The notes under the pieces: generated by a model
Databases searched by the model: none
The model's input: only the letters and a program-made list of their open reading frames with translations
What the model was told of the DNA's origin: nothing
Shown: one piece after another, positions 6,983 to 32,719 of the stretch
How the letters are laid out: every line of letters begins with the position of its first letter
Position numbering within the stretch: position 1 is the first letter of the stretch
DNA from: Novosphingobium barchaimii LL02
Lineage (GTDB): Bacteria > Pseudomonadota > Alphaproteobacteria > Sphingomonadales > Sphingomonadaceae
DNA: 64,000 nucleotides
Direction of reading: 5' to 3'
NCBI RefSeq assembly: GCF_001046635.1
Contig: NZ_KQ130456.1
Span: 4,589 to 68,588 of the forward strand
Made by a program: the position numbers and the translations under genes

Positions 6983-7004
6983 GGCGACATACCATCTACC
7001 CTTA

Positions 7005-7045
7005 AAAGCGCACGTCGGCACGACGTATAAGCGCGCCCTCGAAAG
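7005..7045. other. oriT: Predicted oriT: hairpin plus nic-like sequence
   Basis: ACGTCG-GCA-CGACGT (7012-7026) is a perfect 6-bp inverted repeat. It is followed directly by TAAGCGCGCCCT (7028-7039), one base away from the TAAGTGCGCCCT nic region known for RSF1010 and Ti-type origins. It sits in the divergent interval between traA and the traC-like gene, the position of oriT on Ti plasmids. The exact nick is not proven. Confidence 0.7.
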
Positions 7046-10729: not shown

Positions 10730-10987
10730 TCACCATGGCCACAGCCGTCGCCACCACGGCTCGCCTTCGCGCACGCAGCGCATCAGGATCAGCAATGCCT
10801 GGGTGAAAGCCATCTCGATCTCGGCGAGGCCGACGCCATGATGCCGGGCGAGATCGGCATATGTGACCATCTCGATGCGCAGGGCCAGAAACACCTCGCG
10901 CTGGAACGGCGTCATCTGCCTCAGGCCCCGCCGCTCGGCGCGCAGCAGCGCCCGCCGGGAAGGGCGCCGGGAAGGCTGCCGGCTCAT
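10730..10987 (-). CDS. Small sigma-70 region 4-like protein
   Basis: The 85-residue protein has an arginine-rich start (MSRQPSRRPSRRALLRAERR) and then a helix-turn-helix pattern resembling sigma region 4 (MTPFQREVFLALRIEMVTYADLA..HHGVGLAEIE). It lacks region 2, so it is not a full sigma factor. It overlaps the ardC stop by 4 bp and is probably co-translated with it. Small proteins of this kind accompany ardC and rep genes in related accessory regions; their role is unknown. Confidence 0.55.
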   Translation of the reverse strand: MSRQPSRRPSRRALLRAERRGLRQMTPFQREVFLALRIEMVTYADLARHHGVGLAEIEMAFTQALLILMRCVREGEPWWRRLWPW

Positions 10988-11865
10988 GGCCGGTCCTCCC
11001 CGCAGGCAAGCAACCAGTCCGCCCCCTTGCTGGCCGCGCTCGCCGCCCGGAAGATCGCTTTGTCATCCGCCCGGAGCACCTCCAGCCATGCCCCAATGTA
11101 GTCCGCATGGCGAACGGTGGGCTGGATACCCAGCGATGCGCAGGCGAACGCTGCCGTCATTTCCGCGACGAGTTCCTCGCGTGCATACGATGTCGAACCG
11201 AACACCCCGGACTGATCGCGCTCCAGCCGCCCCTTGCCGCCGACATAGTGACCCAGCTCGTGCAGCGCGGTGCGATACCAGTTGATCGGCTCCCGGAAGG
11301 CGACCTGCGGCGGCACCTGCACGAAATCCGGACCCGGCGCATAGAACGCCTCGCTGCCACCGATCCGGAAATCCGCGCCCGACCCGGCAATGATCCGGTC
11401 CGCTTCTGCAATCGCCAAGACCGGATCGGGCAGCACCAAACCCCCGGCCATATCTTCGCCCAGTCCTTCGCATTGATCGATATTGAAGACCACGAAGCGC
11501 TTGAGGAACGCCACCGTCCGCGCCTCGCCGCCCTCGCTTTGCACCCGCACCGCCTCGTCCTTGGGGGTGAAGCGATCGGCATAGCAGATCACCGTCCCCT
11601 TCTCGCCGCGCCGCACGTTCCCGCCCGCCGCTGCCGCCTGCTTGTAAGTCAGCCAGCGCTGCGAAAAGAATCCGCCCCCGACACCCGCCGCCCATAAGAT
11701 GAGCACATTGATCCCCGAGTAAACCCGCGCCGACACCGCATTGGCCGGCATCATGCACGGACACTTGCACGCGTCCCAAGGCTGCACCCATGGCAACCGG
11801 CCCTCCTCCAGCTCGGCGATGATGCGCGCGGTAACCTCGCCATAAAGACTCTGACGTTCGGACAT
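10984..11865 (-). CDS. ardC: ArdC-family antirestriction protein with zincin motif
   Basis: The 293-residue protein has the ArdC N-terminal ssDNA-binding domain (LYGEVTARIIAELEEGRLPW, then YSGINVLILW) and a C-terminal metallopeptidase-like domain with HELGH (near residue 205) and a downstream acidic residue in AREELVAEM. ArdC proteins bind single-stranded DNA and protect incoming plasmid DNA from restriction. That fits its position on a mobilizable element. It starts at ATG 11865 with AAGGAG just upstream on the minus strand. Confidence 0.88.
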   Translation of the reverse strand: MSERQSLYGEVTARIIAELEEGRLPWVQPWDACKCPCMMPANAVSARVYSGINVLILWAAGVGGGFFSQRWLTYKQAAAAGGNVRRGEKGTVICYADRFTPKDEAVRVQSEGGEARTVAFLKRFVVFNIDQCEGLGEDMAGGLVLPDPVLAIAEADRIIAGSGADFRIGGSEAFYAPGPDFVQVPPQVAFREPINWYRTALHELGHYVGGKGRLERDQSGVFGSTSYAREELVAEMTAAFACASLGIQPTVRHADYIGAWLEVLRADDKAIFRAASAASKGADWLLACGEDRP

Positions 11866-13620: not shown

Positions 13621-13956
13621 TCCGAAGAGCAACCTGCACCCCGCGGGTTTTATCATCCGCTCCACCGCACGCATGCGTGACCGCGTGCCGCGGAAGATGT
13701 GGGCTCGAGTGGATGGACCAGGAACCGGCCGTCGATATCGTTCGCACAACAGGTCTCACCGCGTTGTCCGCGCGGGGCGGTTGTGCCACAGGCGCCCCCA
13801 GAACCGAGCAACGGAGCCGCTCTTGTCGAACGCGCAACCCATTTTTTCGCGAAGCGACGGTCCGGCGCCTGGCGGATGCGCCAGCCCTCGACGCGCCGGG
13901 TTCCACACCGCTTTCGTGATGCACCGTCAGAGTGGTTCCCCGGGGCAACATCCCTC

Positions 13957-15219
13957 ATGACACGCGGACGCGTAACCGTCAGCGAGCAGTTCGACCTGTT
14001 CCTGCCCTACATCGCCGACCTGCCCTTGCGCGACCAGCGCGAGATGATGGAGCGGCCGTTCTTCAGCCTCGCCAAGTCCAAGCGTGTCAAGCCGATCGAC
14101 TACACCAGCCCGGACGGCAAGGTTCGCGTCCACGTCTCGGCCAATCCCGACTATGGCATGGCGACGATCTGGGATGCCGACATCCTGATCTATTGTGCCA
14201 GCATGCTCGCCGACATGGCGCGCCGGGGCGCCAACGACGTGCCCCGCAAGCTGCACCTGATGCCCTACGACCTGCTGCGCGCGATCGGACGCCCCACCAC
14301 GGGGCGCGCCTACGAACTTCTCGGCCAGGCGCTCGACCGTCTCGTCGCGACGACGATCAAGACCAACCTGCGCGCCGAGAACCGTCGCGAGGCGACGTTC
14401 TCGTGGCTCGATGGCTGGACCCAGCTCGTGGACGAGCGGACCGAGCGATCGCGCGGCATGACGATCGAGCTGTCGAACTGGTTCTGGGAAGGGGTGATGA
14501 TGAAGGGCGGCGTGCTCGCCATCGACCGGGCCTATTTCGACATCACCGGCGGGCGCGAACGGTGGCTTTACCGTGTCGCACGCAAGCATGCCGGCGGGGC
14601 CGGGGAAGCGGGCTTTGCGATCTCGATGCCGGTCCTGTTCGAAAAGTCGGGGGCGGAAGGGCCCTATCGCCGCTTCAAGTTCGAGATGCTCAAGCTCGCG
14701 CAGAAGGACGATCTGCCCGGATACGCGCTAGGCATCGAGGCTGCCAAGGACGGTGAACCGATGATCCGCATGCGCCGCGTGGACGGCAAGGGCGGCGCCG
14801 AAAACGCCTTGCCCGCATCGATTCAAGAACCGGACGGCGCTCCGGGGACCTCCGCATCGGGGATTGCCTCCGTACCTAGTAGGACGCCGACACCCGATCC
14901 CCGTTCCCCGCAGGCAGCCGCGGCAAGGCGGGTGTCAGAAGATGTCTTGCCTGGCCAACCCGAGGTCATTGATGCCCGCAAGCTCATCAGGTCGACGATC
15001 GCCGGCCTCTCAGACGCGGCGACGCGCGGGTTCATGACCGACGAGACCATCGATCTCCTGCGCCGACAGTGCCCGGGATGGGACCTGCATGCCCTGCATG
15101 CCGAATTCGAGCGCTGGACTGGCCAGGACACGCAGCGCACGCCTGTCGACTGGCAACGCGCCTTCATCGGTTGGGTAAAGCGTCACCACGCCAAACATCG
15201 TCATCAACTGCCGGGCTGA
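13957..15219 (+). CDS. repA: RPA-type plasmid replication initiator RepA
   Basis: The 420-residue protein matches the alphaproteobacterial replication initiator A family. Its N-terminus reads QFDLFLPYIADLPLRDQREM. It continues with MERPFFSLAKSKRVKPIDY, a winged-helix region around LLRAIGRPTTGRAYELL, and IELSNWFWEGVM. RepA binds iterons and opens the origin; iterons lie downstream at 15411-15665. The C-terminal about 150 residues look like a linker followed by a small helical domain. ATG 13957 begins the conserved region; the longer frame from 13699 covers the hipB operators. Intact. Confidence 0.9.
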   Translation: MTRGRVTVSEQFDLFLPYIADLPLRDQREMMERPFFSLAKSKRVKPIDYTSPDGKVRVHVSANPDYGMATIWDADILIYCASMLADMARRGANDVPRKLHLMPYDLLRAIGRPTTGRAYELLGQALDRLVATTIKTNLRAENRREATFSWLDGWTQLVDERTERSRGMTIELSNWFWEGVMMKGGVLAIDRAYFDITGGRERWLYRVARKHAGGAGEAGFAISMPVLFEKSGAEGPYRRFKFEMLKLAQKDDLPGYALGIEAAKDGEPMIRMRRVDGKGGAENALPASIQEPDGAPGTSASGIASVPSRTPTPDPRSPQAAAARRVSEDVLPGQPEVIDARKLIRSTIAGLSDAATRGFMTDETIDLLRRQCPGWDLHALHAEFERWTGQDTQRTPVDWQRAFIGWVKRHHAKHRHQLPG

Positions 15220-18529: not shown

Positions 18530-19864
18530 TCATTCACCAAGATCTGCCATGGAACTGGCCAGTCGCGGCAATCGCGCTGTCAATGCAGCTGAGATGCTTT
18601 CGTGCACCCCGGCGGAAAAGTCTTCGGGCATGACCGACAATGCCTTTTCCGGGGCATTGCCCGCAATATCCAGAAGCTCCGTGATACTGTCGGACATCAG
18701 TTTCGCACTGAGGCCTGCAGCTTTGCCACTCTGCACAAAATGTCGCCCCATTATTTCCAACATCCGGTAATGGCGGCTCTTGCCCGCCGACATTGCGATG
18801 CGGAACTGATTTTGGGCGATCTGGCCCTTATCGAACGTTGGCTGGGCCGACAGGACGTCATAGAATGGCGTCGATCGGAACCCGCCTCCCGGCTCGAGGA
18901 AAATGCTGAAATTCTTTGCGTGCCCGTCCGTCGCGCCCATGAGCCAGAACAGTATCTGACTCTTGAAGAAGGCGGCCTGGTCGCTTTGCGGATCATTGGT
19001 ACCCCGGAGCAATTCGAGGATCTGCCGCATGCCTGGCCCACCATCGCTCTGGTATTTGCGCGTTGGTGGAATTCCGATCGCCTGACAGCAATCTTCCTGA
19101 GGGAGGCGCAGAATGCGGCTACCATCGCGCCAGCGCCGATCAAACCGCTCTACGACGAGGACGCGCCGTTGCCCAAATGTCATTATCTCGGTCGACGCCA
19201 CTTTCAGCCCGAAGGCTTCCATCAGCTTCAGACAATAGTGCTCGTTGTCAACGCTGTCGGACATGTCGATCATGCCCTCAGACGTCGGAATCTGGCCGAG
19301 CTGCGGTTTGAGGATATGTGTGGTCGGAGTGGTGCCTAGCGGTCGACACCAGCGCCCATCCCTCAGCAGCAGCGCGGTCTTCTCCTGCGCGCCTGCCACC
19401 GATATCCGGAATTCCTGTTCACGGTCGACGCCCAGAGGAGCGCTGGCGAGGTCCGCCAGCATGGCCTCTATCTCCGCATCGCTGATGTCCTGGGCCTCAA
19501 TTGGTCTAGCCGTATCCAGATCCGCTCCCTCGGGAATGAACTGCATCGCGCCGACGCAGTCGCGTCCAATTGCCTGCAGCAAGCTGTAATAGTCTGTACC
19601 TTGCGCCCCCATCCGCTCTGCAACACGCCTTCGCACGGCATCGCGATCCGGCAGGAGATTATCGAAGACGGCGGCGACCTCTGCGCCGCGGTATGCATCC
19701 AGGCGCAGCGGCAGGGACATCGATACCGCGAACCGGTGCTCCCATTGAAGCCATTCTGCTACGTAATGAAAGGAGGTCGCACCATTGGCGGCCTTTTCAA
19801 GACGGCCGACAAGACGCCCGTTGATCAGGACATCTAGAGGAGCATGGCTTTTCTTGCGCGCCAT
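18530..19864 (-). CDS. hipA: HipA-family serine/threonine kinase toxin
   Basis: The 444-residue protein has the HipA N-terminal subdomain (LDVLINGRLVGRLEKA), the loop with the autophosphorylation site (ISVAGAQEKTALL, like Ser150 in E. coli HipA) and the kinase core GATDGHAKNFSIFL followed by PFYDVLS in the metal-binding position. E. coli HipA phosphorylates glutamyl-tRNA synthetase and causes persistence. All key residues are present. The gene follows hipB with a 3-bp gap. Confidence 0.9.
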   Translation of the reverse strand: MARKKSHAPLDVLINGRLVGRLEKAANGATSFHYVAEWLQWEHRFAVSMSLPLRLDAYRGAEVAAVFDNLLPDRDAVRRRVAERMGAQGTDYYSLLQAIGRDCVGAMQFIPEGADLDTARPIEAQDISDAEIEAMLADLASAPLGVDREQEFRISVAGAQEKTALLLRDGRWCRPLGTTPTTHILKPQLGQIPTSEGMIDMSDSVDNEHYCLKLMEAFGLKVASTEIMTFGQRRVLVVERFDRRWRDGSRILRLPQEDCCQAIGIPPTRKYQSDGGPGMRQILELLRGTNDPQSDQAAFFKSQILFWLMGATDGHAKNFSIFLEPGGGFRSTPFYDVLSAQPTFDKGQIAQNQFRIAMSAGKSRHYRMLEIMGRHFVQSGKAAGLSAKLMSDSITELLDIAGNAPEKALSVMPEDFSAGVHESISAALTARLPRLASSMADLGE

Positions 19865-19867
19865 AGC

Positions 19868-20116
19868 CTAGAAAATATCCTCGATCGATTTGCCAACCTT
19901 ACGGCGCGGTACGATCTGCATATCCAGATCCAGAGCAGCTATGATCCCTAAAAGCGTCTCGAGCTTCACTCCCTCACTTCCGTTTTCGATGGCAGAAATC
20001 GTCTTTTGATGCGTCCCAACTTTGCTCGCAAGGTCTGTCTGGCTCATGGATCGACGCCGTCGCTCCGTCTGAAGCAGAGCGCCTAGTTGGCTGGCAAGCC
20101 GTACCACTTGTTCCAT
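19868..20116 (-). CDS. hipB: HipB antitoxin, XRE helix-turn-helix
   Basis: The 82-residue protein has an XRE HTH (QLGALLQTERRRRSMSQTDL, KVGTHQKTISAIENG) and the HipB end VKLETLLGIIAALDLDMQIV. HipB binds HipA and represses the operon. ATG 20116 is preferred over GTG 20122 because GGAG lies 8 bases before it. Four operator-like palindromes lie directly upstream. Confidence 0.88.
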   Translation of the reverse strand: MEQVVRLASQLGALLQTERRRRSMSQTDLASKVGTHQKTISAIENGSEGVKLETLLGIIAALDLDMQIVPRRKVGKSIEDIF

Positions 20117-20131
20117 GAGCACTGCTCCACC

Positions 20132-20692: not shown

Positions 20693-21190
20693 TGCCCCAA
20701 ACTGCGATGAACGATCTGCAATGTCGAGCTGAGAAGCCGCTGATGTGAGTGCGATTCAAATGGCCACGGATCCGTGATGAAAGCCGCTTCGCCGCAAACA
20801 AGCAGGCAGCCGATCCAGAATGACCTCATGACGCAGCGCGCATTGAAGCGCTGGAAGATGAAGCACTCCATTTGCGCCTCGAATTAAACGACGCCCGCGA
20901 AGCGATGGGATTCTCGGCCAGTCAAGCGCAGCGACCAGCGACTGGTTGGTCAGCGCAAGGCGGGAACGAAACCAGCGCAGCGCTGTTCCTGTATCGAACG
21001 CCCTGCAAAGGGCTGGAATCTGAAGGTCCCGCTTCCCCACCCCCTCCGTGGGACCGCCACTCATCAAGGGCCGCTTCTTTTGAAGTTGCCCTTTTTTCGT
21101 CGATACCACTGGTCGCACGAATCCGTTGCTGCCGCCAGACCACCGCCCTCTACAGAACTAGCTGTCTGGTCGTGAACCCGTAAATGGGAC
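20693..21190. other. Intergenic region, about 500 bp
   Basis: No gene is supported on either strand. The region lies between the excalibur gene and the tRNA-Leu-like remnant and probably consists of element debris. Confidence 0.35.
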
Positions 21191-21276
21191 GCCAGCGGCA
21201 GGGGATCGAACCCGCACCTAAGCCTCAAGGCTCAGGATCACTGTGGTGATACGTCTACCAATTCCGTCACGCTGGC
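21191..21276 (-). pseudogene. tRNA-Leu-like remnant with abnormal arms
   Basis: Read on the minus strand, the 86-nt stretch has a perfect 7-bp acceptor stem (GCCAGCG/CGCTGGC), a Leu-type D arm (GGAATTGGTAGAC) and a long variable stem with a TTGA loop. The anticodon arm pairs only as ATCAC/GTGAT around a 4-nt CACA loop, with no room for a 7-nt loop. The T stem pairs only if the T loop has eight bases. The discriminator is G and CCA does not follow directly. It is therefore likely a decayed tRNA-Leu gene, perhaps an old attachment site. Confidence 0.5.
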
Positions 21277-21355
21277 CCCGGCGGTTTAACGCGAAGTTGG
21301 GCATGCGGCTACCAAACTCCCTTCCTTGGCGGTTGGGAGCTGATTCAGGTTCGGC

Positions 21356-22465: not shown

Positions 22466-22949
22466 TTATGCACGACGTAAGTCATATGCGTGCCCAGTCA
22501 ACGGCTCGACTTCAACCCCTTCGCGAAGCTGATCAAGATAGTCACTCCACCATTGATGCATGGCGGTTCGCTCGCCCCAGTAGAGCCCGCGATTGTAGAT
22601 TCCCCGGATCGCATTGGTGTCCATATGGGCAAGCGAGCGCTCGATCGCATCCGGGCTCCACCGCCCGCTTTCGTTGAGCAATGTCGAGGCGGTAGTTCGG
22701 AGGCCATGCGCGGTGACTTCGTTCGGGCCATAGCCCATGCGGCGGAATGCATTGTTGACGGTGTTCTCGCTCATTGTCCGGCGCGATGTATGAAACGCCG
22801 GGAATACGTTTCCGGTCGCTCCCGTCAAACTCTGCAATTCACGCAGATAGCCTATCACTTGGCGCGAAAGCGGCACCCGGTGTGGAAGTCGCATTTTCAT
22901 TCGTTCCGCAGGAACCGTCCACACTGCGTGCTCGAGATTGAACTCCGAC
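22466..22949 (-). pseudogene. int: Tyrosine integrase, C-terminal half (cut by IS66)
   Basis: The frame resumes at SEFNLEHAVWTVP directly after the IS66 left end. It contains the catalytic core: AHGLRTTASTLLNESG (H-x-x-R box), LAHMDTNAIRGIYNRG with the catalytic tyrosine, and the tail YWGERTAMHQWWSDYLDQL. Joined to the N-terminal half at 26018-26773 it gives an integrase of about 410 residues, the usual P4-type length. The first residues before SEF are read from the IS end. Confidence 0.9.
22942..22949. repeat. 8-bp target duplication of IS66, left copy
   Basis: ACTCCGAC here is repeated exactly at 26018-26025 on the other side of the element. Eight bp is the duplication length known for IS66. 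Confidence 0.95.
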
Positions 22950-22995
22950 GTAACCGCTGATCCTGTCCCACGCATTGGTGGTGGCGGGATTTATA

Positions 22996-23577
22996 TCAGG
23001 CTGCTGGCGTCATGCGCGCGAAGGCGCACTGGTCATTGATCAGCGAGATGATTTGCGGGACCATGCGCCACGTATCGACTAGTGCCAGATTGGCGCTCGG
23101 ATCACCCAGTTGTTCGATCCATGACGGGCCACCTGTAATGGTGCTGTGGCCAAGCAGTGCCGCGAGCGGGTAGCCGAACTGCGGGTCGGCGATGAAGGGC
23201 TTCCACGCCTCCATGTCGAGATGCATGGCTGTGAAGAACCCGTTGGCGAAGTCCTCGAGCAGTACCTCGCCTTCCTCGGTGCGCATGTAGATCGGCGCGT
23301 ACGCCTCGGGCTTCTCGGCAAGCTCGATGCAGATGCGGTTATACCGCTTGAGGATCGTTCGGCGCGCAGGCGCCGAGCGCGCGTTGAGAGCGTGCTCGCG
23401 CAGGATGCTCTTAATCCATACGTCGGGGTCAATGACGCTGGGGCCTGCGGCGACTGCGGCCAGGAAGCCGTCGATCGATGAGACGCCAGCTACGGGGGGA
23501 TCAAGCTCGTCGAGCCATATCTCGAGCTGTTCGAGCGAGAGGGTCCGGCCCTGCGATGTGCGAGGTTTGAAGTTCAT
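22996..23577 (-). CDS. UPF0149/YecA-like passenger gene of IS66
   Basis: The 193-residue protein shows the YecA/UPF0149 pattern: LEQLEIWLDELDPPVAGVSS, IDGFLAAVAAGPSVIDPDVW and a long helical C-terminal half (DFANGFFTAMHLDMEAWKPF). It lacks the C-terminal zinc-binding SEC-C motif often attached to such proteins. The ATG overlaps the tnpC stop (ATGA, 23574-23577), so it is translated with the transposase. It lies inside the IS ends. Its role in transposition is unknown. Confidence 0.75.
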   Translation of the reverse strand: MNFKPRTSQGRTLSLEQLEIWLDELDPPVAGVSSIDGFLAAVAAGPSVIDPDVWIKSILREHALNARSAPARRTILKRYNRICIELAEKPEAYAPIYMRTEEGEVLLEDFANGFFTAMHLDMEAWKPFIADPQFGYPLAALLGHSTITGGPSWIEQLGDPSANLALVDTWRMVPQIISLINDQCAFARMTPAA

Positions 23578-25133
23578 GCCGCCAGCGCTTTTACCGGTTC
23601 TGCCGCCGGCCGCCAGTTCCATGGGAGCAAGATGTCCAGTTCGTTGATCTTCACAGCGCCCGTGACGATACGCTCCAGCACGTCATTCAGCCAGGTGTAG
23701 GGATCCAGGCCCCCCAGGCGAGCCGTCTGGAGAAGCGATGCCATGACGGCCCAGGTCTGAGCTCCTTCCTCGCTACCAGCGAAGAGGCTGGACTTGCGGC
23801 CCTGGGCCACATTTCTCATGCCGCGCTCGACGGTGTTGGTATCGACCTCGATCCGGCCGTCTTCCAGGAACAGGGTTAGCCCCTTCCAGTGGTTGAGCGT
23901 GTAGCGCATCGCCTTGGCCAGGTCGGACTTGGGCGACAGACCTGGAAGCATGATGTCGATCTGCGCCTTGATCTTCGCCATGACGTCGGCGGTTTCGGCG
24001 AGACGAGCCTGGAGGCGCTGTGCGGCGGTGCCTTTGCGCACACGCGCCTCGATCGCGTAGACCTCACCGATCAGGGTAAGGATCGCCGCTGCCACCGGCG
24101 ATGGCGATTTGCGGAAGGCATCGACGAACTTGCGCCGGGCGTGGGCAAGACAGAAGGCGAGTGTGATCTTGCCTCGGCCCGGACCACCGCGCACAAGCGC
24201 CTTGTAGGCACCATAGCCGTCGACCTGGATAACGCCCTGGTAGCGGGCGAGTTGTTCGAACGCCTCGGCATGCCGCCGTCCGCGAGCATGGATATACACC
24301 ACTGCCGGATGGGCCGGGCCTGACCACGGTCCGTCATCACAAGCGTGCGCCCAGAACTGTGTCGTGCGGGTTCGTCTTCGCCCTTTCTCGAGGACCGGCA
24401 TGCGGGTCTCATCGCAGAAGATCCGGGACTGGCTGTGGATGTAGGCAAGCAGGCGATCATAGAGCGCCTTCACCCACCATGCGATCTTACGCATCCAGCG
24501 GCTCGGTAACGCCCGATCGAGGATGACGCCCTGGCCTGCGAGCATCTGCAACTGCCGATTGAGCGGGATCGACCAGGCGTAGCGCGCCGTCGCCATCCAG
24601 GCCAGCGTCGAGGTAGTGACCATCGAGCCTGGGATCGCGCGGCGCGGCGCCGGCGCTTGAACGACGCCCTCCCGGCATTCCCGGCAGGCGTAACGAGGGC
24701 GCACTGTGCGGATGACGCGAACGATGGCCGGCACCCAGTCGAGTGCCTCACTGGCATCTTCGCCGATCCTGTGGAGCTTGCCGGCGCAGCAGGGGCAATC
24801 CAGCGTGTCGGGATCAATCACGCGCTCCACGCGCTCGATATGGGCCGGCAGTGCCATCAGGCCGCGCTTGCGGCGTGGGCGACCGACGGCAGGCTTGTCT
24901 TCGGCGTCGCCATCGTCGTTGGCTGCGGTAGCCGGCGTGGTTACGAGGTCGCCGAGATCAAGGAGACCTTGATCACCCAGGATGACGCTGGCGCGTTCTG
25001 AACGGCTGCCGAAGGCCTGGTGGGCCATGCCTTTGAGCAGTGCGCGCAGTTGGGCGTTTTCTGCCTGCAGTTCACGCACCAGAGCCGCCATTTGCTCCAT
25101 ATCTTCAGGGAGATCGTCGGCTTGGGCGGGCAT
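23574..25133 (-). CDS. tnpC: IS66 transposase TnpC
   Basis: The 519-residue transposase has an N-terminal coiled coil (MEQMAALVRELQAENAQLRA) and a zinc-finger-like CPCCAGKLH segment near 110. The DDE core follows, with IFCDETRMPVLEKG, IQVDGYGAYKAL and DTNTVERGMRNVA. The C-terminal region ending NELDILLPWNW is the IS66 signature. It is intact. Confidence 0.93.
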   Translation of the reverse strand: MPAQADDLPEDMEQMAALVRELQAENAQLRALLKGMAHQAFGSRSERASVILGDQGLLDLGDLVTTPATAANDDGDAEDKPAVGRPRRKRGLMALPAHIERVERVIDPDTLDCPCCAGKLHRIGEDASEALDWVPAIVRVIRTVRPRYACRECREGVVQAPAPRRAIPGSMVTTSTLAWMATARYAWSIPLNRQLQMLAGQGVILDRALPSRWMRKIAWWVKALYDRLLAYIHSQSRIFCDETRMPVLEKGRRRTRTTQFWAHACDDGPWSGPAHPAVVYIHARGRRHAEAFEQLARYQGVIQVDGYGAYKALVRGGPGRGKITLAFCLAHARRKFVDAFRKSPSPVAAAILTLIGEVYAIEARVRKGTAAQRLQARLAETADVMAKIKAQIDIMLPGLSPKSDLAKAMRYTLNHWKGLTLFLEDGRIEVDTNTVERGMRNVAQGRKSSLFAGSEEGAQTWAVMASLLQTARLGGLDPYTWLNDVLERIVTGAVKINELDILLPWNWRPAAEPVKALAA

Positions 25134-25182
25134 GCCTGACTATACCACACCGACTCCTCGTCGCCACAGAAAACCGCAGATA

Positions 25183-25536
25183 TCAGCCAAAAATCAGGGG
25201 TCTGCGCACCTCGGGTGCGGGCAGTTTCTTCCAATCCAGACCCGACAGCAATGCCGTGCATTGCGGTCCGCTCAGGACCATCGTGCCGCCTTGCACGGCA
25301 GGCCAGTAAAACCTTCCTCGGTCGAGCCATTTCGTCGCCATAACCGCGCCTGACCCGTCATGACGGAGCAACTTCACCTTATCCGCGCCCTTGTTGCGGA
25401 ACACGAAGACATCGCCCGCGCAGGCATCATGCCCCAGCACGTGCGTCACCAGCCCCATCAATCGGTTAATCCCGGCTCTGAAGTCGACCGGCTGTGTCGC
25501 CACGAAGATCCGTACGCTTCCGTCGATCGGGATCAT
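25183..25536 (-). CDS. tnpB: IS66 accessory protein TnpB
   Basis: The 117-residue protein begins MIPIDGSVRIFVATQPVDFR and contains RAGINRLMGLVTHVLGHDAC and DVFVFRNKGADKVKLLRHDG, typical for the TnpB (Orf2) of IS66, which is required for transposition together with TnpA and TnpC. The ATG overlaps the tnpA stop by 4 bp. The frame is open upstream but not in use. Confidence 0.92.
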   Translation of the reverse strand: MIPIDGSVRIFVATQPVDFRAGINRLMGLVTHVLGHDACAGDVFVFRNKGADKVKLLRHDGSGAVMATKWLDRGRFYWPAVQGGTMVLSGPQCTALLSGLDWKKLPAPEVRRPLIFG

Positions 25537-25937
25537 TCCCGGATCGCCGCCAGTACCGCGCGCAGGTGGTCCATCTCGACCGCGCCCATGATCCGAACCG
25601 TCACGTCTCGTACCACCAACTCCAAGCCGCCAGGTTCGAGTTGCTTCTCCTGAGCCAGCGTGACGGGTACGAACCGCAATTCCTCGACGGCTCCTGCTGC
25701 TCGCGCTTGCCGACGCCAATAGTGCAAAAGGCCAAGGCCGACGCCGTTATCGCGGGCGACCTGCGCCACAGTCATTCCTGGCACAAAGCTCTCAGCCAGA
25801 ATGCGGTCGCGTACGTCATCCGGCCAACGCTCGTAGCGCCGACGTCCGGGCGGCAAACTGACGGTCAAACGCGCAGTTGTACTGTGCGACGCACACGTCA
25901 AACCGCCGTTTGACCCTGCATCAATTTCATCCGACAT
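25533..25937 (-). CDS. tnpA: IS66 accessory protein TnpA
   Basis: The 134-residue protein contains an HTH of the IS66 Orf1/IS3 OrfA type (RILAESFVPGMTVAQVARDN, GVGLGLLHYWRRQAR) and the C-terminal strand-helix LVVRDVTVRIMGAVEMDHLR. It is the first gene of the IS66 operon and is coupled to tnpB. Confidence 0.88.
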   Translation of the reverse strand: MSDEIDAGSNGGLTCASHSTTARLTVSLPPGRRRYERWPDDVRDRILAESFVPGMTVAQVARDNGVGLGLLHYWRRQARAAGAVEELRFVPVTLAQEKQLEPGGLELVVRDVTVRIMGAVEMDHLRAVLAAIRE

Positions 25938-26017
25938 TGCCCGATCTCCTCCTCGTCTCGGGCGAGCCTAACCATCAGCAAGCTCTCGGAATACGTGGGG
26001 CGGGTGCAGCGGTTACA

Positions 26018-26025
26018 CTCCGACC
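26018..26025. repeat. 8-bp target duplication of IS66, right copy
   Basis: ACTCCGAC, identical to 22942-22949, directly abuts the right inverted repeat. Confidence 0.95.
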
Positions 26026-26773
26026 AGTCAGCTTTTCGCAGCTCACCGGGCCGCGTCATCACGTGTGGTGCGATCTGCATGGCAAGCCGGGTCAACGCGT
26101 TGCCTGAGTATTTATCAATATCCCGAAGCAACTGACCGACCTGTGCCGGCTCGAGCAGCGCCGCGTGATGCTTTACTTTTGGGGTGATCAAGGCGCCGCG
26201 AAGAATAAACGTCGGGTCACTCTCTCCGCGGCCGGTGGCCACGGCGTATCGAAAGATGCGGCTTGCAAATGACCGGCAGCGGTGGGCCGTCTCCCGCTTG
26301 CCCTGCGCTTCGATCCCCTTGAGAACGGCCATGATCTCGAGCGGTTTGATATCGGCGACGGGCCGCTTTGCTATCGGTTTCAGCCGACTGAGGAGCCAGT
26401 TGGCCTTGACGATGGTCGCTTGGGCCCGCTCTTCGGCCACCATTCGCTCGATGAACTCCTTGGCAATGTCCTCGAAAGTGTTAGCCGCATGGAAAGAGGC
26501 GATAAGCTTCTTCTGCTTGCGCAGCGCGAGCGGATCCTCCCCGGCCTCCAGAAGCCTTCTCGCCTCGTCAAGCTTGCGCCTTGTACCGGCAAGGCCGACG
26601 TCCGGGTAACGCCCCAGCGCGAGACGCTTCTGCTTTCCTGCGAACCGGTACTTGAAGCGCCAGAGCTTCGACCCTGCGGGGTGGATTTCAAGATAGAGCC
26701 CCCGGCCATCGCTGCATCGGTAGGCCTTCTCCGCAGGCTGGAGGTGGCGGATCTGCATTTCCGTAAGCGCCAT
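26018..26773 (-). pseudogene. int: Tyrosine integrase, N-terminal half (cut by IS66)
   Basis: The frame starts MALTEMQIRHLQPAEKAYRC, the DUF4102 start of P4-type integrases, with AGGAG 8 bases before ATG 26773. It continues through the SAM-like core-binding domain (FEDIAKEFIERMVAEERAQA) to MTRPGELRKADWSE with the first catalytic arginine, where the IS66 sequence begins. It is next to the att copy at 26982, the normal place for an integrase gene. As it stands the gene cannot make an active enzyme. Confidence 0.92.
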
Positions 26774-26981
26774 TGGCGATTCTCCTCGACGGGTCGAGGA
26801 GCGTGACAGCAGGCAAGTGGCCACGGGTTCGATGCCCGATGGGGCAAATTCCCGGTCTCCCGTGGCACCACTCGTTCAGGATACCCTGATTTTACCTGAC
26901 ACGCTCCGAGACTATTGAGGCTCAGAAATGGCAGAAAACCGCCATTTTTTCAACCTTGGGAGACGTTTTGGGAGGGGTCAA

Positions 26982-27026
26982 TGGTGCCGCTTACAGGATT
27001 CGAACCTGTGACCCCATCATTACGAA
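26982..27026. repeat. att copy: 45-bp duplicate of the tRNA-Thr 3' end
   Basis: The 45 bases from TGGTGCCGCTTACAGG to CATCATTACGAA are identical to 31498-31542, which is the 3' part of tRNA-Thr(CGU) including its CCA. The match starts exactly at the CCA end and stops in the anticodon loop region. It lies 209 bp upstream of the integrase start. This is the structure of an attachment site left by integration into a tRNA gene. Confidence 0.88.
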
Positions 27027-27390
27027 CACGAGCGATAGACCGGCAGAAATCGAGGGTTTTCGAGGCTTGTGATGCCGAAATTCGTCCAATCTTACGGGTC
27101 GCCCAAGCGATACCCAGATTGTGCCGAAGTCCGATCTGGGCGTCTTCCTACTGAAAGCACTTTGGCTCGGTGGAGATTCGGAAATTGACCCGGTCAAAAC
27201 CCGGTCGGGATAAGTCGGTAGAGGCCGCCGAGCCTAAGTTACAGGCGCGGTTCATGCGATAGCTGCCGTTGAAGTAACGACCGCTGCCCCTTTGAGGCGA
27301 AGGAACGTGGACAAAACCGCTGGTAAATAAAAACAAATCAAAACCGTAACTTCGAGCGAATCTATCGTAGCGTTGGTAGGATATAAGTGG

Positions 27391-28407
27391 TTATCGAGCG
27401 CGTCCTCCTTGGTAGGTTCGGCTATTCATATTCGCAGTATCGCCGCGCGTAGACTGATGAAGGACCGATTCAAGCCAACCTTCGCCAGCCTCTTGGGCAC
27501 GTTCCCTGAACGTCTCGAATATCGCGTTCGTCATGGTTTCGACGCTGTAACCCGTCTCCTTGGCCGCTAGGTCAAACGCAGCTTGATACAAGCGCAATAG
27601 CAACTCCGCGCCATTCTCGCTGCCGGTCAATATGCGAAATGAAGCGTCGCCAACGGTGACTATTAACGCAGGTTCAGCACGCAACATGCCGCCCATTGAT
27701 CGATGCCCGCGGAGTGTGTTGCCCACTAGCGAATGAGCATAGAGTTCAGCACCGGGATAGGCCATGCGCAGAGTACGCATTTGTTCCGCCAATCGCTTGC
27801 CGCCGCTACTGTTCATACTACCGGTTTTGCTTTTTACCTGATGGAGTCGCAATGGCTCGCCATCTGCAACAGGAGGCTGAATTACATCGGCACCGGGAAA
27901 AGGGTTAAATTGAAAATCGAGAAGTTCCGCGTTTTCGGCGCGAGGCTCAGGATTCCGAACGTTTCCACGCATTCGTCCAATCACTTCTTCGTGAAGGTGC
28001 CCCATCAAGCCTTCGAGTATCATCAAAGCTTTGTGCGTAACCGTCGCACCTATCGCGCCTCTAAAATCGCCCTCACACAAAAGGGATTGCGTTGCGGCAA
28101 GAAGGTAGGGGTCCAAGACATCACCAGGATTTCTGCCGCATTCTATTTCGCGCGCAGTTCGCGGAAGATCGGCGGTGATCGCGATCACTTTGGCCGTCGT
28201 CCATTGAAGAACAGCGTCGGGATCATCAAACGCGCGCAACAGCTGCGCCCGACGGGCCAAGTTCGTTGCCGACAAAGCGATCCCACTTTCAGGCGTACCA
28301 GCGCGATCAAGGGCAGTAGCGAACAGCGCCTCAAGGTCGGCAATGGTAAGGTTTGCAATTGCCTCAACAGGTTGCTCGTTGAGCTCAGGCGGAACATCAA
28401 CCGCCAT
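27391..28407 (-). CDS. Protein of unknown function with nuclease-like (E/Q)xK motif
   Basis: The 338-residue protein is not clearly assigned. Near residues 180-205 it reads GADVIQPPVADGEPLRLHQV followed by KSKTGSMNSSGGKRLAEQM. A D...(E/Q)-x-K arrangement on a strand followed by a polar helix is what PD-(D/E)xK nucleases show, so it may be an endonuclease or restriction-type effector. There is no signal peptide or membrane segment. The N-terminal half is helical. Its ATG is 17 bp from an IS3-family end, so its native promoter is probably lost. Function is inference only. Confidence 0.55.
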   Translation of the reverse strand: MAVDVPPELNEQPVEAIANLTIADLEALFATALDRAGTPESGIALSATNLARRAQLLRAFDDPDAVLQWTTAKVIAITADLPRTAREIECGRNPGDVLDPYLLAATQSLLCEGDFRGAIGATVTHKALMILEGLMGHLHEEVIGRMRGNVRNPEPRAENAELLDFQFNPFPGADVIQPPVADGEPLRLHQVKSKTGSMNSSGGKRLAEQMRTLRMAYPGAELYAHSLVGNTLRGHRSMGGMLRAEPALIVTVGDASFRILTGSENGAELLLRLYQAAFDLAAKETGYSVETMTNAIFETFRERAQEAGEGWLESVLHQSTRGDTANMNSRTYQGGRAR

Positions 28408-28442
28408 TCGTAGATCAGCGAAGATGAGTAGCCCCTAGTTTT

Positions 28443-29354
28443 CTAGACGCCTTCTGCTTTCAAAATCTGCTGCCGTTCGAACTGGGCGGGTGACAGCATC
28501 CCGTTTCTGACCTGCTTGCGCACCGGGTTGTAGAACATCTCGATGTAGTCGAACACATCCTGCCGGGCTTCCTCGCGTGTTTTGTAGGTCCGGCGCCGGA
28601 TGCGCTCTCGCTTGAGCGAGGAGAAGAAGCTCTCGGCGACAGCGTTGTCATGGCAGTTGCCGCGCCGGCTCATCGAATGCTCAAGATTGTGAGCCCGGAT
28701 GAAGGCAGCCCAGTCCATGCTGGTGAACTGCGAGCCCTGATCCGAATGGATCAGCACCCGCTGCTTCGGCTCGCGCCGCCATACCGCCATGTGCAGCGCT
28801 TGCAGCACCGCATCGGTGGTCTGCCTGCTCTGCATCGACCACCCCACCACGCGGCGGGAATAGAGATCAATCACAACGGCCAGATAAGCAAAGCCCTCTA
28901 GGGTGCGGATGTAGGTGATGTCGGTCACCCAGGCCCTGTCGGGGGCAGCGACGTCGAACTGCCGGTCCAGAGTATTGTCGACCGCCAGGGATGGCTTGCC
29001 GCCATAGCTCCCCGGCCGACGCTTGTAGCCGATCTGCGCCTTGATACCTGCCAGCCTGGTCAACCGGGCAACACGGTTCGGGCAGCAGGTCTCGCCCTGA
29101 TCCAGCAGGTCGTCGTGCAACTTGCGGTAGCCATAGACTTTGCCGCTGTCGTTCCAGGCTTGCCGGATCAACTTCGTCTGCCGAACATCTTCCCGGGCCC
29201 GTTGGCTCAGCGGGTTCTTCTGCCAGGCATAGAAGCCGCTGGGCTGGATGCGCAGGCACCGACACATCGATCGAACCCGGAACTGGTCACGATGCTCGGC
29301 AACAAATGCGTATCTCACTTTGCATCCCTGGCGAAATACGCGGTGGCTTTTTTT
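28443..29354 (-). CDS. IS3-family transposase OrfB (produced by frameshift)
   Basis: This is the DDE integrase part: YAFVAEHRDQFRVRSMCRCL, an HTH_21 region, then WVTDITYIRTLEGFAYLAVV with the first D, LIHSDQGSQFTS with the second D and DNAVAESFFSSLKRE with the E. It is reached from OrfA by -1 slippage on a run of seven A (29348-29354 on the minus strand). It is intact up to the stop near the IS end. Confidence 0.9.
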   Translation of the reverse strand, partial: KKSHRVFRQGCKVRYAFVAEHRDQFRVRSMCRCLRIQPSGFYAWQKNPLSQRAREDVRQTKLIRQAWNDSGKVYGYRKLHDDLLDQGETCCPNRVARLTRLAGIKAQIGYKRRPGSYGGKPSLAVDNTLDRQFDVAAPDRAWVTDITYIRTLEGFAYLAVVIDLYSRRVVGWSMQSRQTTDAVLQALHMAVWRREPKQRVLIHSDQGSQFTSMDWAAFIRAHNLEHSMSRRGNCHDNAVAESFFSSLKRERIRRRTYKTREEARQDVFDYIEMFYNPVRKQVRNGMLSPAQFERQQILKAEGV

Positions 29355-29584
29355 AGTATATCGCGCTCCTCGGTCACCCGGGCCAGCTCGCGCTTCAACT
29401 GGCGGATCTCGGCATCCTTGCTGGCATCGCCAGACACCACCTTCGCCAATTGCCGCTTCCATGCGTACAGCGAATGCTGACTGACGCCGAGCCGTTCAGA
29501 AACCTCCGCTACCGGATACCCGCGCTCGGTGATCTGGGCCACCGCATCACGCTTGAACTCATCGCTGAAATTGGGCTTCCCCAT
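29315..29584 (-). CDS. IS3-family OrfA, HTH protein
   Basis: The 89-residue protein begins MGKPNFSDEFKRDAVAQITE with an HTH (PVAEVSERLGVSQHSLYAWK) and a leucine-zipper-like end (EIRQLKRELARVTEERDILK). It binds the IS ends and provides the N-terminus of the OrfAB fusion transposase. Confidence 0.92.
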   Translation of the reverse strand: MGKPNFSDEFKRDAVAQITERGYPVAEVSERLGVSQHSLYAWKRQLAKVVSGDASKDAEIRQLKRELARVTEERDILKKATAYFARDAK

Positions 29585-29632
29585 CGTCGTCTCCTGTCCT
29601 CAAAATTAGGATAGAAGGCGTCCAGAAATCTA

Positions 29633-29968
29633 GGGGCTACTCATGTCGATCGGCACGAAGAGGATCAGCCCGAAGCCATCGTCTGACAGGATGAACGCCA
29701 GCTCGAACCAGCGTTGATGCCTCTGGATGATCTCGGGTGGCTGATTAAAGGCTCCGGCGTCATCGATCAGCGATCGGCCAAGGTCGTCCTCGATGCTGTC
29801 CAGGGTATCCCCCGGCATCACGACAGCGAACATGGCGAGGTCGGTCAGGTCGAAGTCGGCGTAAACGCTGAGCCGTTCAACGTGGGCTTCCAGCAGGCCA
29901 TGGACTTCGTTGCCTTCGAGCACCGCCGAGACGTCGGACAAGGCCGCATAGGTACGAATTACAATCAT
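29633..29968 (-). pseudogene. Gene truncated at its 3' end by the IS3-family element
   Basis: The first 109 residues (MIVIRTYAALSDVSAVLEGN to ILFVPIDM) are native. The next codons come from the IS end, and TAG at 29630-29632 supplies the stop. The protein is acidic with no recognised domain; it has a small alpha/beta look (FDLTDLAMFAVVMPGD, FELAFILSDDGFGLILFVP). The missing 3' part would have lain directly upstream of the 338-residue nuclease-like gene, so the two may once have been neighbours in an operon. Confidence 0.6.
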
Positions 29969-29981
29969 GTACGTGATCCAT

Positions 29982-30012
29982 AAAAAAAGGCCCCCGGAAT
30001 TATCCGAGAGCC
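29982..30012 (-). terminator. Rho-independent terminator
   Basis: On the minus strand GGCTCTCGGA-TAAT-TCCGGGGGCC forms a 10-bp stem with two G-U pairs and is followed by seven T (29982-29988). It lies just after the 33-residue ORF and ends the transcript of the small membrane genes and the DUF805 gene. Confidence 0.85.
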
Positions 30013-30040
30013 TTGGGAAAGGTGGTTATGGTGGGGTCGT

Positions 30041-30142
30041 TTAGGGCATCAGCGACAGTAGGCTAAACGCCCTTGCAATAAGGGCCAACGTGTTGCTGCC
30101 GAAGTAGAGCAGCAGGCCACCGACGATGAATTGAGGGATCAT
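30041..30142 (-). CDS. 33-residue single-pass membrane peptide
   Basis: The ORF reads MIPQFIVGGLLLYFGSNTLA and ends FSLLSLMP: one hydrophobic segment and almost no charge. AAAGG lies about 8 bases before the ATG. It is placed between a 79-residue membrane gene and a strong terminator on the same strand. Tiny membrane peptides may be toxins or subunits; nothing more can be said. Confidence 0.5.
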   Translation of the reverse strand: MIPQFIVGGLLLYFGSNTLALIARAFSLLSLMP

Positions 30143-30162
30143 GATGTGGCCTTTCAATCTGT

Positions 30163-30402
30163 TTATGACGAAGGGACAGCCTCGTGAGCTTCCGGACGAA
30201 GCAATGCTCCAACCGCGATAAAAATAGCACCGACTATCGCTAATGAACCGCCCATCATCATCAGATTAGTTTTGTCGTTTAGGAGCCCAATATTGAGAGT
30301 TTCTGAGTATTCTGCAGCGCCGCTTTTTAATAAAGCATACACTTCAACGACGAAGCCGGTCGCCAACGCCGCAATACCTGCAATTTTGAAAAAAGCATTC
30401 AT
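30163..30402 (-). CDS. Small membrane protein, two segments
   Basis: The 79-residue protein has two hydrophobic stretches (IAGIAALATGFVVEVYALL and MMMGGSLAIVGAIFIAVGAL) with a polar loop between them and a short charged C-terminus. No family is recognised. It is 15 bp downstream of the DUF805 gene and 20 bp upstream of the 33-residue ORF, so the three likely form one operon. Confidence 0.65.
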   Translation of the reverse strand: MNAFFKIAGIAALATGFVVEVYALLKSGAAEYSETLNIGLLNDKTNLMMMGGSLAIVGAIFIAVGALLRPEAHEAVPSS

Positions 30403-30417
30403 TGTTTATCTCCAAGA

Positions 30418-30984
30418 TTAGCCGCGACCCTTTGGGTCGGGTCCGAATTGATTGTCGCCGGGGGTGCCGTCGATCAGCATAAATCCCGCGATAATGAGGG
30501 GCCCGATGTATGGGACGAGGTTCAGTAGCGCGAACCAGCCGGTCTTCTCTTGGTCATGGAAGCGACGGACCTGCAGGGCGAGCCCGGGAACTGCCAAACC
30601 GCCAAGTATGATTACACAAATGGTGACGAACGTCAGGTTGCCGTCGCTATCCTCGCCGGGCAGCGATTTGAAAAGGATGATCGTTAAGACAGCTAGGATT
30701 GCGTGGAACGTCCAATATTCCTTGCGACAGGACCGGCCTGTGAAGACAGCGTACCGGCGCAAAGGGTAAACTGCCCAGCCCCCGACATCCTGCTCACCGG
30801 GCAACTCGGGATATGGCTCGATGTCGCCACTAAAGCCGATCGCAATTGGGGGTTTGCTGCGCTTGCGGCTTCCCCCTTCCAACAAATCCTGCTTGGCCCT
30901 CTCGAAATCGGTGTCGGAGATAATGCCGCTCTGCTTCATCTGGTAGAGTTTCTCGATGCTCCGCAGAGCTTCTTCGTCAATCAT
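30418..30984 (-). CDS. SHOCT-DUF805 membrane protein
   Basis: The 188-residue protein starts with a SHOCT helix pair (LRSIEKLYQMKQSGIISDTD, FERAKQDLL) and continues with a DUF805 domain of about four membrane segments, including the conserved RRYAVFTGRSCRKEYW and VRRFHDQEKTGWFALL motifs. DUF805 proteins are inner-membrane proteins of unknown role, often carried by phages and islands. It is the first gene of the small membrane operon. Confidence 0.85.
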   Translation of the reverse strand: MIDEEALRSIEKLYQMKQSGIISDTDFERAKQDLLEGGSRKRSKPPIAIGFSGDIEPYPELPGEQDVGGWAVYPLRRYAVFTGRSCRKEYWTFHAILAVLTIILFKSLPGEDSDGNLTFVTICVIILGGLAVPGLALQVRRFHDQEKTGWFALLNLVPYIGPLIIAGFMLIDGTPGDNQFGPDPKGRG

Positions 30985-31497
30985 TTGGCTGTTCCCTATC
31001 TCGTGAAATGACGATCGCGCCGATGGGCACGACGGAACAGACCGCTAAGAATCTTGCTGTTGATGCACGCTCACGCCCCCACGCTACGCCGCTCACGGAA
31101 ACGGACGACTCCCGCTATCAGCTGAAACCATTATCGAATTCGGTGTTATCGTTGGCGTGCCCGGCCCCTGAAGGGACGCAGGCTTTTGGCGTGTTAACAA
31201 TGACATCGCAAGAGATTCCAGGCCTATCCATATAAGATGGCCCGTTTTGCGCGTCGCAATTTAACTCTAAGGTAGCTGGCGCGGCACGAGGAAACCGCTG
31301 ACAGGAACGAGGAGTTGAATGCAGCACGACTAGATTGGTTAAGGCGGCTGCTCGCCACCAATCTCAACCGGGTTTGGCGCGGGTAGCCGACCTCAATCGG
31401 CCCAAAGACGCCCCAGCCTTGACCCAAGCGCTCCCCAAGCGGAAAGCCCTTCCCGTGGGAAACCGCCGATGTCTGGGTGGAAGTGCCTTTAGGAAGG
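30985..31497. other. Intergenic region, 513 bp
   Basis: This is the end of the mini-island up to the tRNA-Thr. A plus-strand frame at 31008-31235 has no ribosome binding site or protein character. No further feature is seen; the promoter of the DUF805 operon must lie near 30990-31050 on the minus strand. Confidence 0.35.
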
Positions 31498-31573
31498 TGG
31501 TGCCGCTTACAGGATTCGAACCTGTGACCCCATCATTACGAATGATGTGCTCTACCAACTGAGCTAAAGCGGC
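31498..31573 (-). tRNA. tRNA-Thr(CGU), intact, CCA encoded
   Basis: On the minus strand a 76-nt gene runs from GCCGCTTTAGCTCAG to the encoded CCA. The acceptor stem GCCGCTT/AAGCGGC, the D arm, the anticodon stem CATCA/TGATG with loop TTCGTAA (anticodon CGT) and the T arm with TTCGAAT all fold. Its last 45 bp are the att sequence repeated at 26982-27026. Confidence 0.96.
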
Positions 31574-31960
31574 GTGCCTTGCGGGCAGGCGGGCCATTTA
31601 CATGGCGAAGGGGTGAGAAGCAATCGCCTTTCGTGCCTTTTTTATGCGGTCCGCTCTGGGGTACCGGCGCCGGTGCCGGATCTTCTGAAAACCACATTTG
31701 TGCGCTTTGGCCCCGCACCCCCGAAAGGGGGTATACTAATGGGTGGTAGCGCTTGCCCCTATCCGGGGCGCAAATGGCGCCGCCTGCGGTGCAGGGCTGC
31801 GGGTCCATGGACCGCGTGGCCGCATAGGCCCAATCGCCGTCTGGACATCTTTTCTATTTTATCGAACGTATGTCTCTATTTTATCCATCTTTATCGAAGT
31901 TCGGATTTCCGCGAGAAAGACCGCACCGGGCAAGAGCGCCCCTCACCGAGGAGTTTCAAC
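31574..31960. other. Intergenic region with the upstream promoter motif
   Basis: There is no gene in these 387 bp. The region holds a hairpin ACCCCC-gaaa-GGGGGT (31717-31732) and an AT-rich stretch with ATCGAAC (31861-31867) and ATCGAA/TTCGGAT (31893-31906). These elements also occur upstream of the VOC and YoaK genes. Confidence 0.45.
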
Positions 31961-32632
31961 ATGACCATCACCGCCGCCCCGACCGCCACCGCAACCCCCG
32001 GCAAGTCACTGATTTCGCCTGACAACCATGCCCTTGTCTTGATCGATTTCCAGTCGCAGATGGCCTTCGCCACCAAGTCCATTTCGGCCGAACTGCTTCG
32101 CAACAACGCTGCGCTTATCTCGCGCGGGGCCAAGTCGTTCGGCGTGCCCACCATCCTTACCACGGTTGCCGAGAAGAGCTTCTCCGGCCCGATGTTCGAC
32201 GAGATCACCGATGCCTTTCCCGGCCAGGAATTGCTCGACCGCACTTCGATGAACACCTGGGAAGATGCTGCCGTGATCGCCGAGATCAACCGGATCGCCA
32301 AGCCCCGCATCGTCTTCGCCGGTCTGTGGACCTCGGTCTGCATCGTCGGCCCGGTGGCATCGGCCATCGACCAGGGCTTCGAGGCGTACTTCATCGCCGA
32401 CGCCTGCGGCGACATCTCGGATGAAGCGCATGAGATCGCGGTCCAGCGCATGATCCAGCTTGGCGCCGTGCCGATGACTTCGCTCCAGTACCTGCTCGAA
32501 CTGCAGCGCGACTGGGCCCGTACCGAAACCTACGACAGCACCACCGGCATCGCCAAAGTCTGGGGTGGTTCCTACGGCCTCGGCATCAAGTACGCCAAGG
32601 CCATGTTCGGCGCTTCCGAAGGCGCGCACTGA
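31961..32632 (+). CDS. Isochorismatase-family hydrolase (YcaC-like)
   Basis: The 223-residue protein has the cysteine-hydrolase pattern: ALVLIDFQSQMAFA (Asp29), a basic residue in LLDRTSMNTWED and the nucleophile in FAGLWTSVCIVGP (Cys127). YcaC-like enzymes form large rings, and their substrate is usually unknown. GAGGAG precedes the ATG. It is followed at 87 bp by the chloroperoxidase-like hydrolase; the two likely share the promoter region at 31860-31910. Confidence 0.85.
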   Translation: MTITAAPTATATPGKSLISPDNHALVLIDFQSQMAFATKSISAELLRNNAALISRGAKSFGVPTILTTVAEKSFSGPMFDEITDAFPGQELLDRTSMNTWEDAAVIAEINRIAKPRIVFAGLWTSVCIVGPVASAIDQGFEAYFIADACGDISDEAHEIAVQRMIQLGAVPMTSLQYLLELQRDWARTETYDSTTGIAKVWGGSYGLGIKYAKAMFGASEGAH

Positions 32633-32719
32633 GTTAAGCTCGGGACCGGCGCCACCTCACCCCCCACCTGCCGCCGCCGGTCCCATCCCTTTCCTTTTTA
32701 CAACTGAAGGAGTTTTACC

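Follow-up and report, generated by a model that had tools for sequence, protein, structure and literature searches.

The tRNA-Thr locus and the mini-island

The stretch of 64,000 nucleotides from contig NZ_KQ130456.1 of Novosphingobium barchaimii LL02, referred to below as the window, contains a single intact tRNA-Thr gene (anticodon CGT) on the minus strand. The 3′ part of this gene, from the anticodon loop to the CCA end, constitutes the right one of two attachment site (att) copies of 45 bp, which show 100% identity and lie 4,516 bp apart. Because the gene is on the minus strand, the CCA end is where the right copy starts; the first bases of the inner copy are identical. The 4,471 bp between the two copies (27027–31497), termed here the mini-island, are the subject of this analysis. 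To the left of the inner copy lies a second element, the neighbour element. Related genomes are cited below by number (G001 and so on). Several of them carry islands at tRNA-Thr(CGU) which share the ends of the mini-island and encode their own integrase; the name family B is given to these islands here. The features of the locus, including one insertion sequence (IS) and several open reading frames (ORFs), are as follows:

26982–27026, no strand: inner att copy, flanked on the left by the neighbour element and on the right by the mini-island (exact repeat and comparison with relatives)
27027–27205, plus strand: left end, putative attachment arm, conserved in B islands (match to the end model at 27028–27205, 137 bits, the window being part of the model)
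27391–28424, minus strand: restriction-endonuclease-like gene without about 50 N-terminal residues (ORF 27391–28407; the in-frame homology continues to the edge of IS3)
28425–29643, minus strand: IS3-family element of 1,219 bp at the putative deletion junction
29630–29968, minus strand: p112, a backbone gene of the B islands, 112 aa, its 3′ end cut by IS3 (four closer homologues have 130–137 aa)
30418–30984, minus strand: DUF805/SHOCT protein gene with an open frame, common to the two G006 islands and the G097 island
31389–31497, plus strand: right end, putative attachment arm (model match of 95.8 bits, the window being part of the model)
31498–31542, no strand: att copy within the tRNA gene (exact repeat)
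31498–31573, minus strand: tRNA-Thr (CGT), intact, integration target (ARAGORN)

The initial annotation of the window had reported identical tRNA-Thr copies framing about 4.5 kb of DNA with a lower G+C content and no integrase, and these points were confirmed. The annotation had also considered that such a duplicate might be common in unrelated places. When up to 3 mismatches were allowed, a 34-base part of the repeat was found at just its two sites within the window, against a mean of 0.00 in 100 shuffles, which rules out a chance repeat. The G+C content of the mini-island is 0.562 versus 0.626 in the region 1–26981 and 0.664 in the region 31574–64000. A scan of five ORFs between the copies revealed no tyrosine integrase, the IS3 transposase being the sole recombinase seen, and neither the integrases nor the primase-like and VapE-like proteins of the B islands gave a significant tblastn match within the mini-island.

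The empty tRNA-Thr(CGU) locus, for which a search in related genomes had been proposed, is present in G001, the nearest relative compared. In this natural unoccupied site the neighbour element is joined straight to the tRNA gene via a single 45-bp copy, and the mini-island is absent. By blastn, positions 26017–27026 of the window correspond to L021 8680–7671 and positions 31498–32688 to L021 7715–6556; one 45-bp copy is common to both alignments and nothing lies between them. The mini-island is a precise presence/absence unit between the tRNA gene and the neighbour element. The view of the locus as tandem accretion at one tRNA gene, with the mini-island as a separate unit, is borne out by this junction. 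Such a unit would be expected if the mini-island entered the tRNA-side site after the neighbour element, or if the G001 lineage lost it by exact excision. No match to the B integrase was obtained in G001 at E up to 1e-40.

Contents of the mini-island

Outside IS3, the non-overlapping ORFs of the mini-island encode 338, 112 and 188 aa. The claim that the segment has its own cargo stands as regards its presence, but this cargo is largely broken: the endonuclease-like gene is truncated at its 5′ end and the backbone gene p112 at its 3′ end, and the DUF805 frame is open. The non-overlapping ORFs of at least 80 aa comprise p112, the DUF805 gene, the IS3 transposase gene and what is left of the endonuclease-like gene, and no transfer gene was found among them. 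A plasmid search gave 74 records, the best 20 of which match the IS3 region only.

The endonuclease-like ORF of 338 aa is shorter than its homologues (390–393 aa). In all three relatives found, the gene is located directly 3′ of a gene for a C5 cytosine methylase (PF00145); none lies beside the copy in the window. These relatives come from metagenome-assembled genomes titled Sphingomonadaceae, Magnetospirillum and Gammaproteobacteria, the first being apparently identical to contig 124 of G149. The position of the methylase directly before the endonuclease-like gene indicates that the two probably form a restriction-modification pair. An endonuclease domain was not recognised in the protein: Pfam gave no match to it, nor to its three longer relatives at E≤1, and PHROGs and NCBIfam contained no family for it at E up to 0.01. 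No PADLOC defence family was matched at E up to 1 by the three mini-island proteins tried. A defence function of the cargo has no family support, and the pairing with the C5 methylase is the only lead. A four-sequence profile searched against solved structures matched two chains of designed helical repeats, at E 0.002 and 0.0056; these matches were disregarded.

Ends shared with the islands of family B

The two ends of the mini-island (27027–27204 and about 31395–31497), p112 and the DUF805 gene recur in the islands of G006 and G097, which are bounded by copies of the tRNA-Thr(CGU) 3′ part (blastn and tblastn). With the core included, blastn against the complete G097 island gave 98% identity over 152 bp for the right end and 89% over 223 bp for the left end. 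G043 and G012 showed weaker or partial matches to the ends and genes of the mini-island.

Five complete B islands, two in G006 and one each in G097, G043 and G012, carry a gene for an integrase of 383–468 aa between the B ends. The five integrases share 45–73% mutual identity, and the one scanned contains the domains Arm-DNA-bind_3 and Phage_integrase. Two further B-island proteins were scanned and gave a RepB_primase match just below the curated cut-off and a VapE-like domain. Of the nine B-island proteins scanned, none was recognised as a relaxase or a conjugation protein. Read leftward, the order in the two G006 islands and in G097 is the DUF805 gene, the p112 homologue, a primase-like or VapE-like gene, the integrase gene, further genes and the left end. 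The islands of G043 and G012 contain the integrase and the p112 homologue and no clustered DUF805 gene. The mini-island possesses the family-specific ends around the 45-bp core and lacks an integrase of its own; it is therefore filed as a remnant and not as a complete member of the family.

Both ends contain short phased repeats. In the right end the motif CCCAR occurs four times, at 31401, 31412, 31423 and 31434, with a spacing of exactly 11 bp, and the three resulting pairs were reached by 0 of 10,000 mononucleotide shuffles. The exact phasing is kept in three other B right ends (two in G006, one in G097) and partly in G043 proximal, G043 distal and G012. The left end has CCCAR at 27102 and 27113, a pair also seen in five of the five other left ends examined (G043 distal left out), and ACCCG at 27188 and 27199, likewise 11 bp apart. 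The CCCAR repeats may represent the arm sites of the integrase.

The right-hand att copy of the G097 island has no called tRNA gene next to it. Two att copies of this genome (L034 9058 and L035 2319) have different T-stem alleles, and one of them adjoins non-tRNA sequence. The differing alleles suggest that the islands carry their own tRNA 3′ allele.

The neighbour element and its split integrase

The initial annotation had placed an integrase just outside the inner att copy. The position is correct, but the gene is not intact:

22466–22949, minus strand: neighbour tyrosine integrase, 3′ part with the catalytic end (comparison with G001 and profile matches)
22950–26016, minus strand: IS66 element splitting the integrase gene (inverted ends; 8-bp target duplication ACTCCGAC at 22942–22949 and 26017–26024)
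26017–26824, minus strand: neighbour tyrosine integrase, 5′ part (domain scan and comparison with G001)

The ORF that starts at 26824, 157 bp to the left of the inner att copy, encodes an Arm domain (PF13356) and a core-binding domain (PF22022) and no catalytic domain; the gene is broken at 26017, and its C-terminal catalytic part lies beyond the IS66 element. The G001 copy is uninterrupted, with a PF00589 match in a 444-residue frame without stops, and shares 98.5–98.7% protein identity with the two parts in the window. The B integrases show 23–33% identity over 81–241 aa to the neighbour integrase, a comparison that covers the N-terminal part of the latter only. The flank of the neighbour element (26825–26981) is unlike the right end of the mini-island in alignment; it contains no CCCAR in the orientation of the B right ends and two in the opposite orientation, 12 bp apart.

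The far boundary of the neighbour element is not marked by a second 45-bp copy in G001, where a single copy was found with up to 3 mismatches. A candidate far end in this genome lies at C1:522,890–522,906 (L074 12891–12907), where 17 bp match the 3′ end of the tRNA gene exactly. The 4.6 kb beyond it gave short partial matches only, and 12 of the 21 genomes, G001 included, had any match. The candidate far end, which shares 17 of the 45 bp, hints that the two integrases use different cores.

The neighbour element also encodes a MobA/MobL relaxase-helicase (4091–7021), ArdC (10984–11865) and a replication initiator (13699–15219). HipA and a helix-turn-helix partner (18530–20122) could form an island-stabilising toxin-antitoxin pair. 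Besides the IS66 transposition genes, the IS66 element contains a UPF0149-family gene (22996–23622). A tRNA-Leu-like stretch at 21187–21280 was read by eye and was not called by ARAGORN.

Family B islands in the genus

Models of the right end (8 sequences) and the left end (7 sequences), both without the 45-bp core, were searched against 195 genomes of the genus at E≤0.001. The sequences used included the window and the first relatives, which are matched by construction, and under the strict filters weak matches are lost. The right end was found in 26 and the left end in 28 of the 195 genomes, and the B integrase (E up to 1e-40) in 34. Both ends occur in the same orientation on one contig in 13 islands: two in G006, two in G043 and one each in G114, G127, G097, G084, G067, G012, G014, G008 and G069. 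Eight of these islands contain a stop-free B integrase match, one (G067) a match with one stop, and four no match.

The four islands without a B integrase match are G043 proximal (7.2 kb), G008 (about 1.5 kb), G069 (3.6 kb) and G014 (10.5 kb). G043 proximal, which stands in tandem with a complete B island, is the sole case among them in which both ends match strongly (84.3 and 120.1 bits). The ends of the other three are weaker: 34.3 (partial) and 103.5 bits for the right and left end of G008, 31.2 and 58.7 bits for G069, and 43.3 and 44.8 bits for G014. No recombinase was recognised in the ORFs scanned with Pfam (1 of 3 in G008, 2 of 3 in G069, 7 of 11 in G014 and 6 of 7 in G043 proximal), which leaves room for a short or divergent one; for PF00589 this covers all matches in G043 and, in G008, G069 and G014, those among the matches listed. 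In G093, a 47-bp piece of the B right end is all that lies beside tRNA-Thr (L036 6704–6750), a possible scar of a lost island.

Outer att copies in 8 of the 195 genomes read TGGTGCGC, compared with TGGTGCCGC in the tRNA genes and inner copies examined. They have one base less in their acceptor-stem part, and most of the 45-bp block is otherwise kept. These copies are located at L054 9082, L055 9684, L027 13909 (minus strand), L062 18085 (minus strand) and L066 7145 (minus strand) and in L078, L081 and L083. Seven of the eight adjoin matches to the left-end model, G079 being the exception. The 1-kb outer flanks of five copies showed no mutual similarity by blastn; the other three were seen over 30 bases. 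The leftmost copy in G012 is an outer copy without the loss and reads TGGTGCCGC. One idea is that the shared loss locks the island in place, as excision would leave a defective tRNA.

Origin of the mini-island

We propose that the mini-island is a remnant of a family B island which lost its integrase by a deletion at IS3, and thus a remnant of the cis-mobilizable element (CIME) type; this reading is held with high confidence. The sequence of p112 agrees with that of its homologues as far as the right edge of IS3; its frame then stops within the IS, about 20 residues short. The endonuclease-like gene is cut at the left edge, and its frame is homologous up to that edge. IS3 is not flanked by a target duplication. 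In the B islands compared, the interval from p112 to the left-end cargo holds the integrase gene and the primase-like or VapE-like gene, where these were identified, so that one deletion ending at IS3 would explain their loss as well as that of the methylase gene and of both gene ends.

According to this proposal, a B island with its integrase would have integrated at the 3′ half of tRNA-Thr(CGU), so that it came to lie between the tRNA gene and the unrelated resident element, and the 45-bp target would have been duplicated in the process. Loss of a stretch ending at IS3 would have taken away the integrase, the primase-like gene, the DNA methylase and the adjacent parts of two genes; both attachment ends, the DUF805 gene and gene fragments would have stayed behind. 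A route of equal standing would be recombination between two IS copies. As a CIME, the remnant would not move by itself; judged from its ends, its pair of recombination sites could probably still be used by an incoming family B integrase, and it is in this family that a helper would have to be sought.

Several points weigh against this proposal. No intact B island with this endonuclease and methylase was found, and the ancestral gene order is deduced from other islands. No B ends were detected in the stretch searched around the three relatives of the endonuclease-like gene. The element could have arrived already shortened, before its insertion, and the source genome could contain a B integrase outside the 64-kb window. 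The missing target repeat of IS3 is also explicable by the recombination between two IS copies.

The initial annotation had regarded the mini-island as a cargo island without an integrase of its own, which may depend on the enzyme of the adjacent element for its movement. Both elements occupy the same tRNA gene, and the 45-bp repeat contains the 17 bp of the candidate far end of the neighbour, so the neighbour enzyme may recognise part of this repeat. On the other hand, its gene is split by IS66 in the window, the flanks differ, and the ends of the mini-island are those of a family with another integrase of its own. The neighbour integrase was rejected as a helper on these grounds; it is probably the wrong enzyme, and the model as a whole is very improbable. 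Since this integrase is of another family and broken, cis-mobilization by the neighbour is not expected in this strain. Still far less credible is ordinary chromosomal sequence with a second tRNA fragment that arose by chance or duplication, for which nothing speaks beyond the presence of the repeat; the precise absence in G001 and the occurrence of island-family ends and backbone genes in several genomes practically dispose of it.

The mini-island could instead be a satellite-like, non-autonomous element of the B type, which spreads without an integrase and is moved in trans by the B integrases of other islands, rather than a case of one-off decay. Both B ends, with an att-like copy at each side, are present in the four further islands in which no integrase was recognised, that of G043 stands next to a complete B island, and the ends in the window are well conserved with respect to G097. 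However, the loss in the window is explained by the IS3 deletion and is accompanied by broken cargo, which resembles decay; the ends of G008, G069 and G014 are weaker or partial, the outer att copies are partly degenerate, and the Pfam annotations of the cargo differ among these islands and from the window. This origin is considered unlikely. Slightly more doubtful is a wider version, according to which the integrase-less B-type islands (1.5–10.5 kb) would form a standing class of trans-mobilised satellites at tRNA-Thr(CGU) in the genus, with the recurrent one-base acceptor-stem loss in the outer copy causing excision to rebuild a defective tRNA and thereby locking the islands in.

Relation to known elements and implications

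As a probably decayed family B island, the mini-island is filed as a CIME-type remnant. It is delimited by direct att repeats at a shared integration target, the segment between them being absent in G001, and neither the scan of the five ORFs nor tblastn with the B integrase revealed an integration gene. Elements related to ICESt1 of Streptococcus thermophilus are reportedly a named example of the class. In the part of the source drawn on here, CIMEs are described as elements without integration and transfer genes which have kept attL and attR, and their tandem arrangement with another element at the same target is reported (PMC5704250). The mini-island resembles them in its retained att ends, its missing integration genes and its tandem position. 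It differs in that the integrase of its neighbour is of another family and broken, and the B islands are known as integrase-encoding islands and not as established integrative and conjugative or integrative and mobilizable elements.

The ssrA islands of Dehalococcoides are, as far as the cited account goes, likewise arranged in tandem at one RNA gene; 15 of them have no integration module and were suggested to be cis-mobilizable (PMC3146451). Here, in contrast, the target is tRNA-Thr(CGU), and there is both a relative with an empty site and a likely deletion junction. The Escherichia coli H47 island, which carries microcin H47, is also small and without recombinase genes, and according to the account drawn on, its excision and integration rely on functions that other parts of the genome supply (PMC3191183). 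In that account the H47 island has extensive imperfect repeats, several crossover regions, a microcin cargo and mobility demonstrated by experiment, whereas the mini-island is known from its sequence alone.

The mini-island illustrates in good resolution how a mobile island may end up stranded as a passenger: one relative has the site unoccupied, other genomes contain complete islands of the family, and the mini-island itself has a likely deletion junction at an IS and ends that can still be recognised. An integrase next to such an island need not be its proper helper; the end sequences rather than the neighbourhood indicate the enzyme. The census provides a few islands in which no integrase was recognised and which are suited to direct tests of trans-mobilization.

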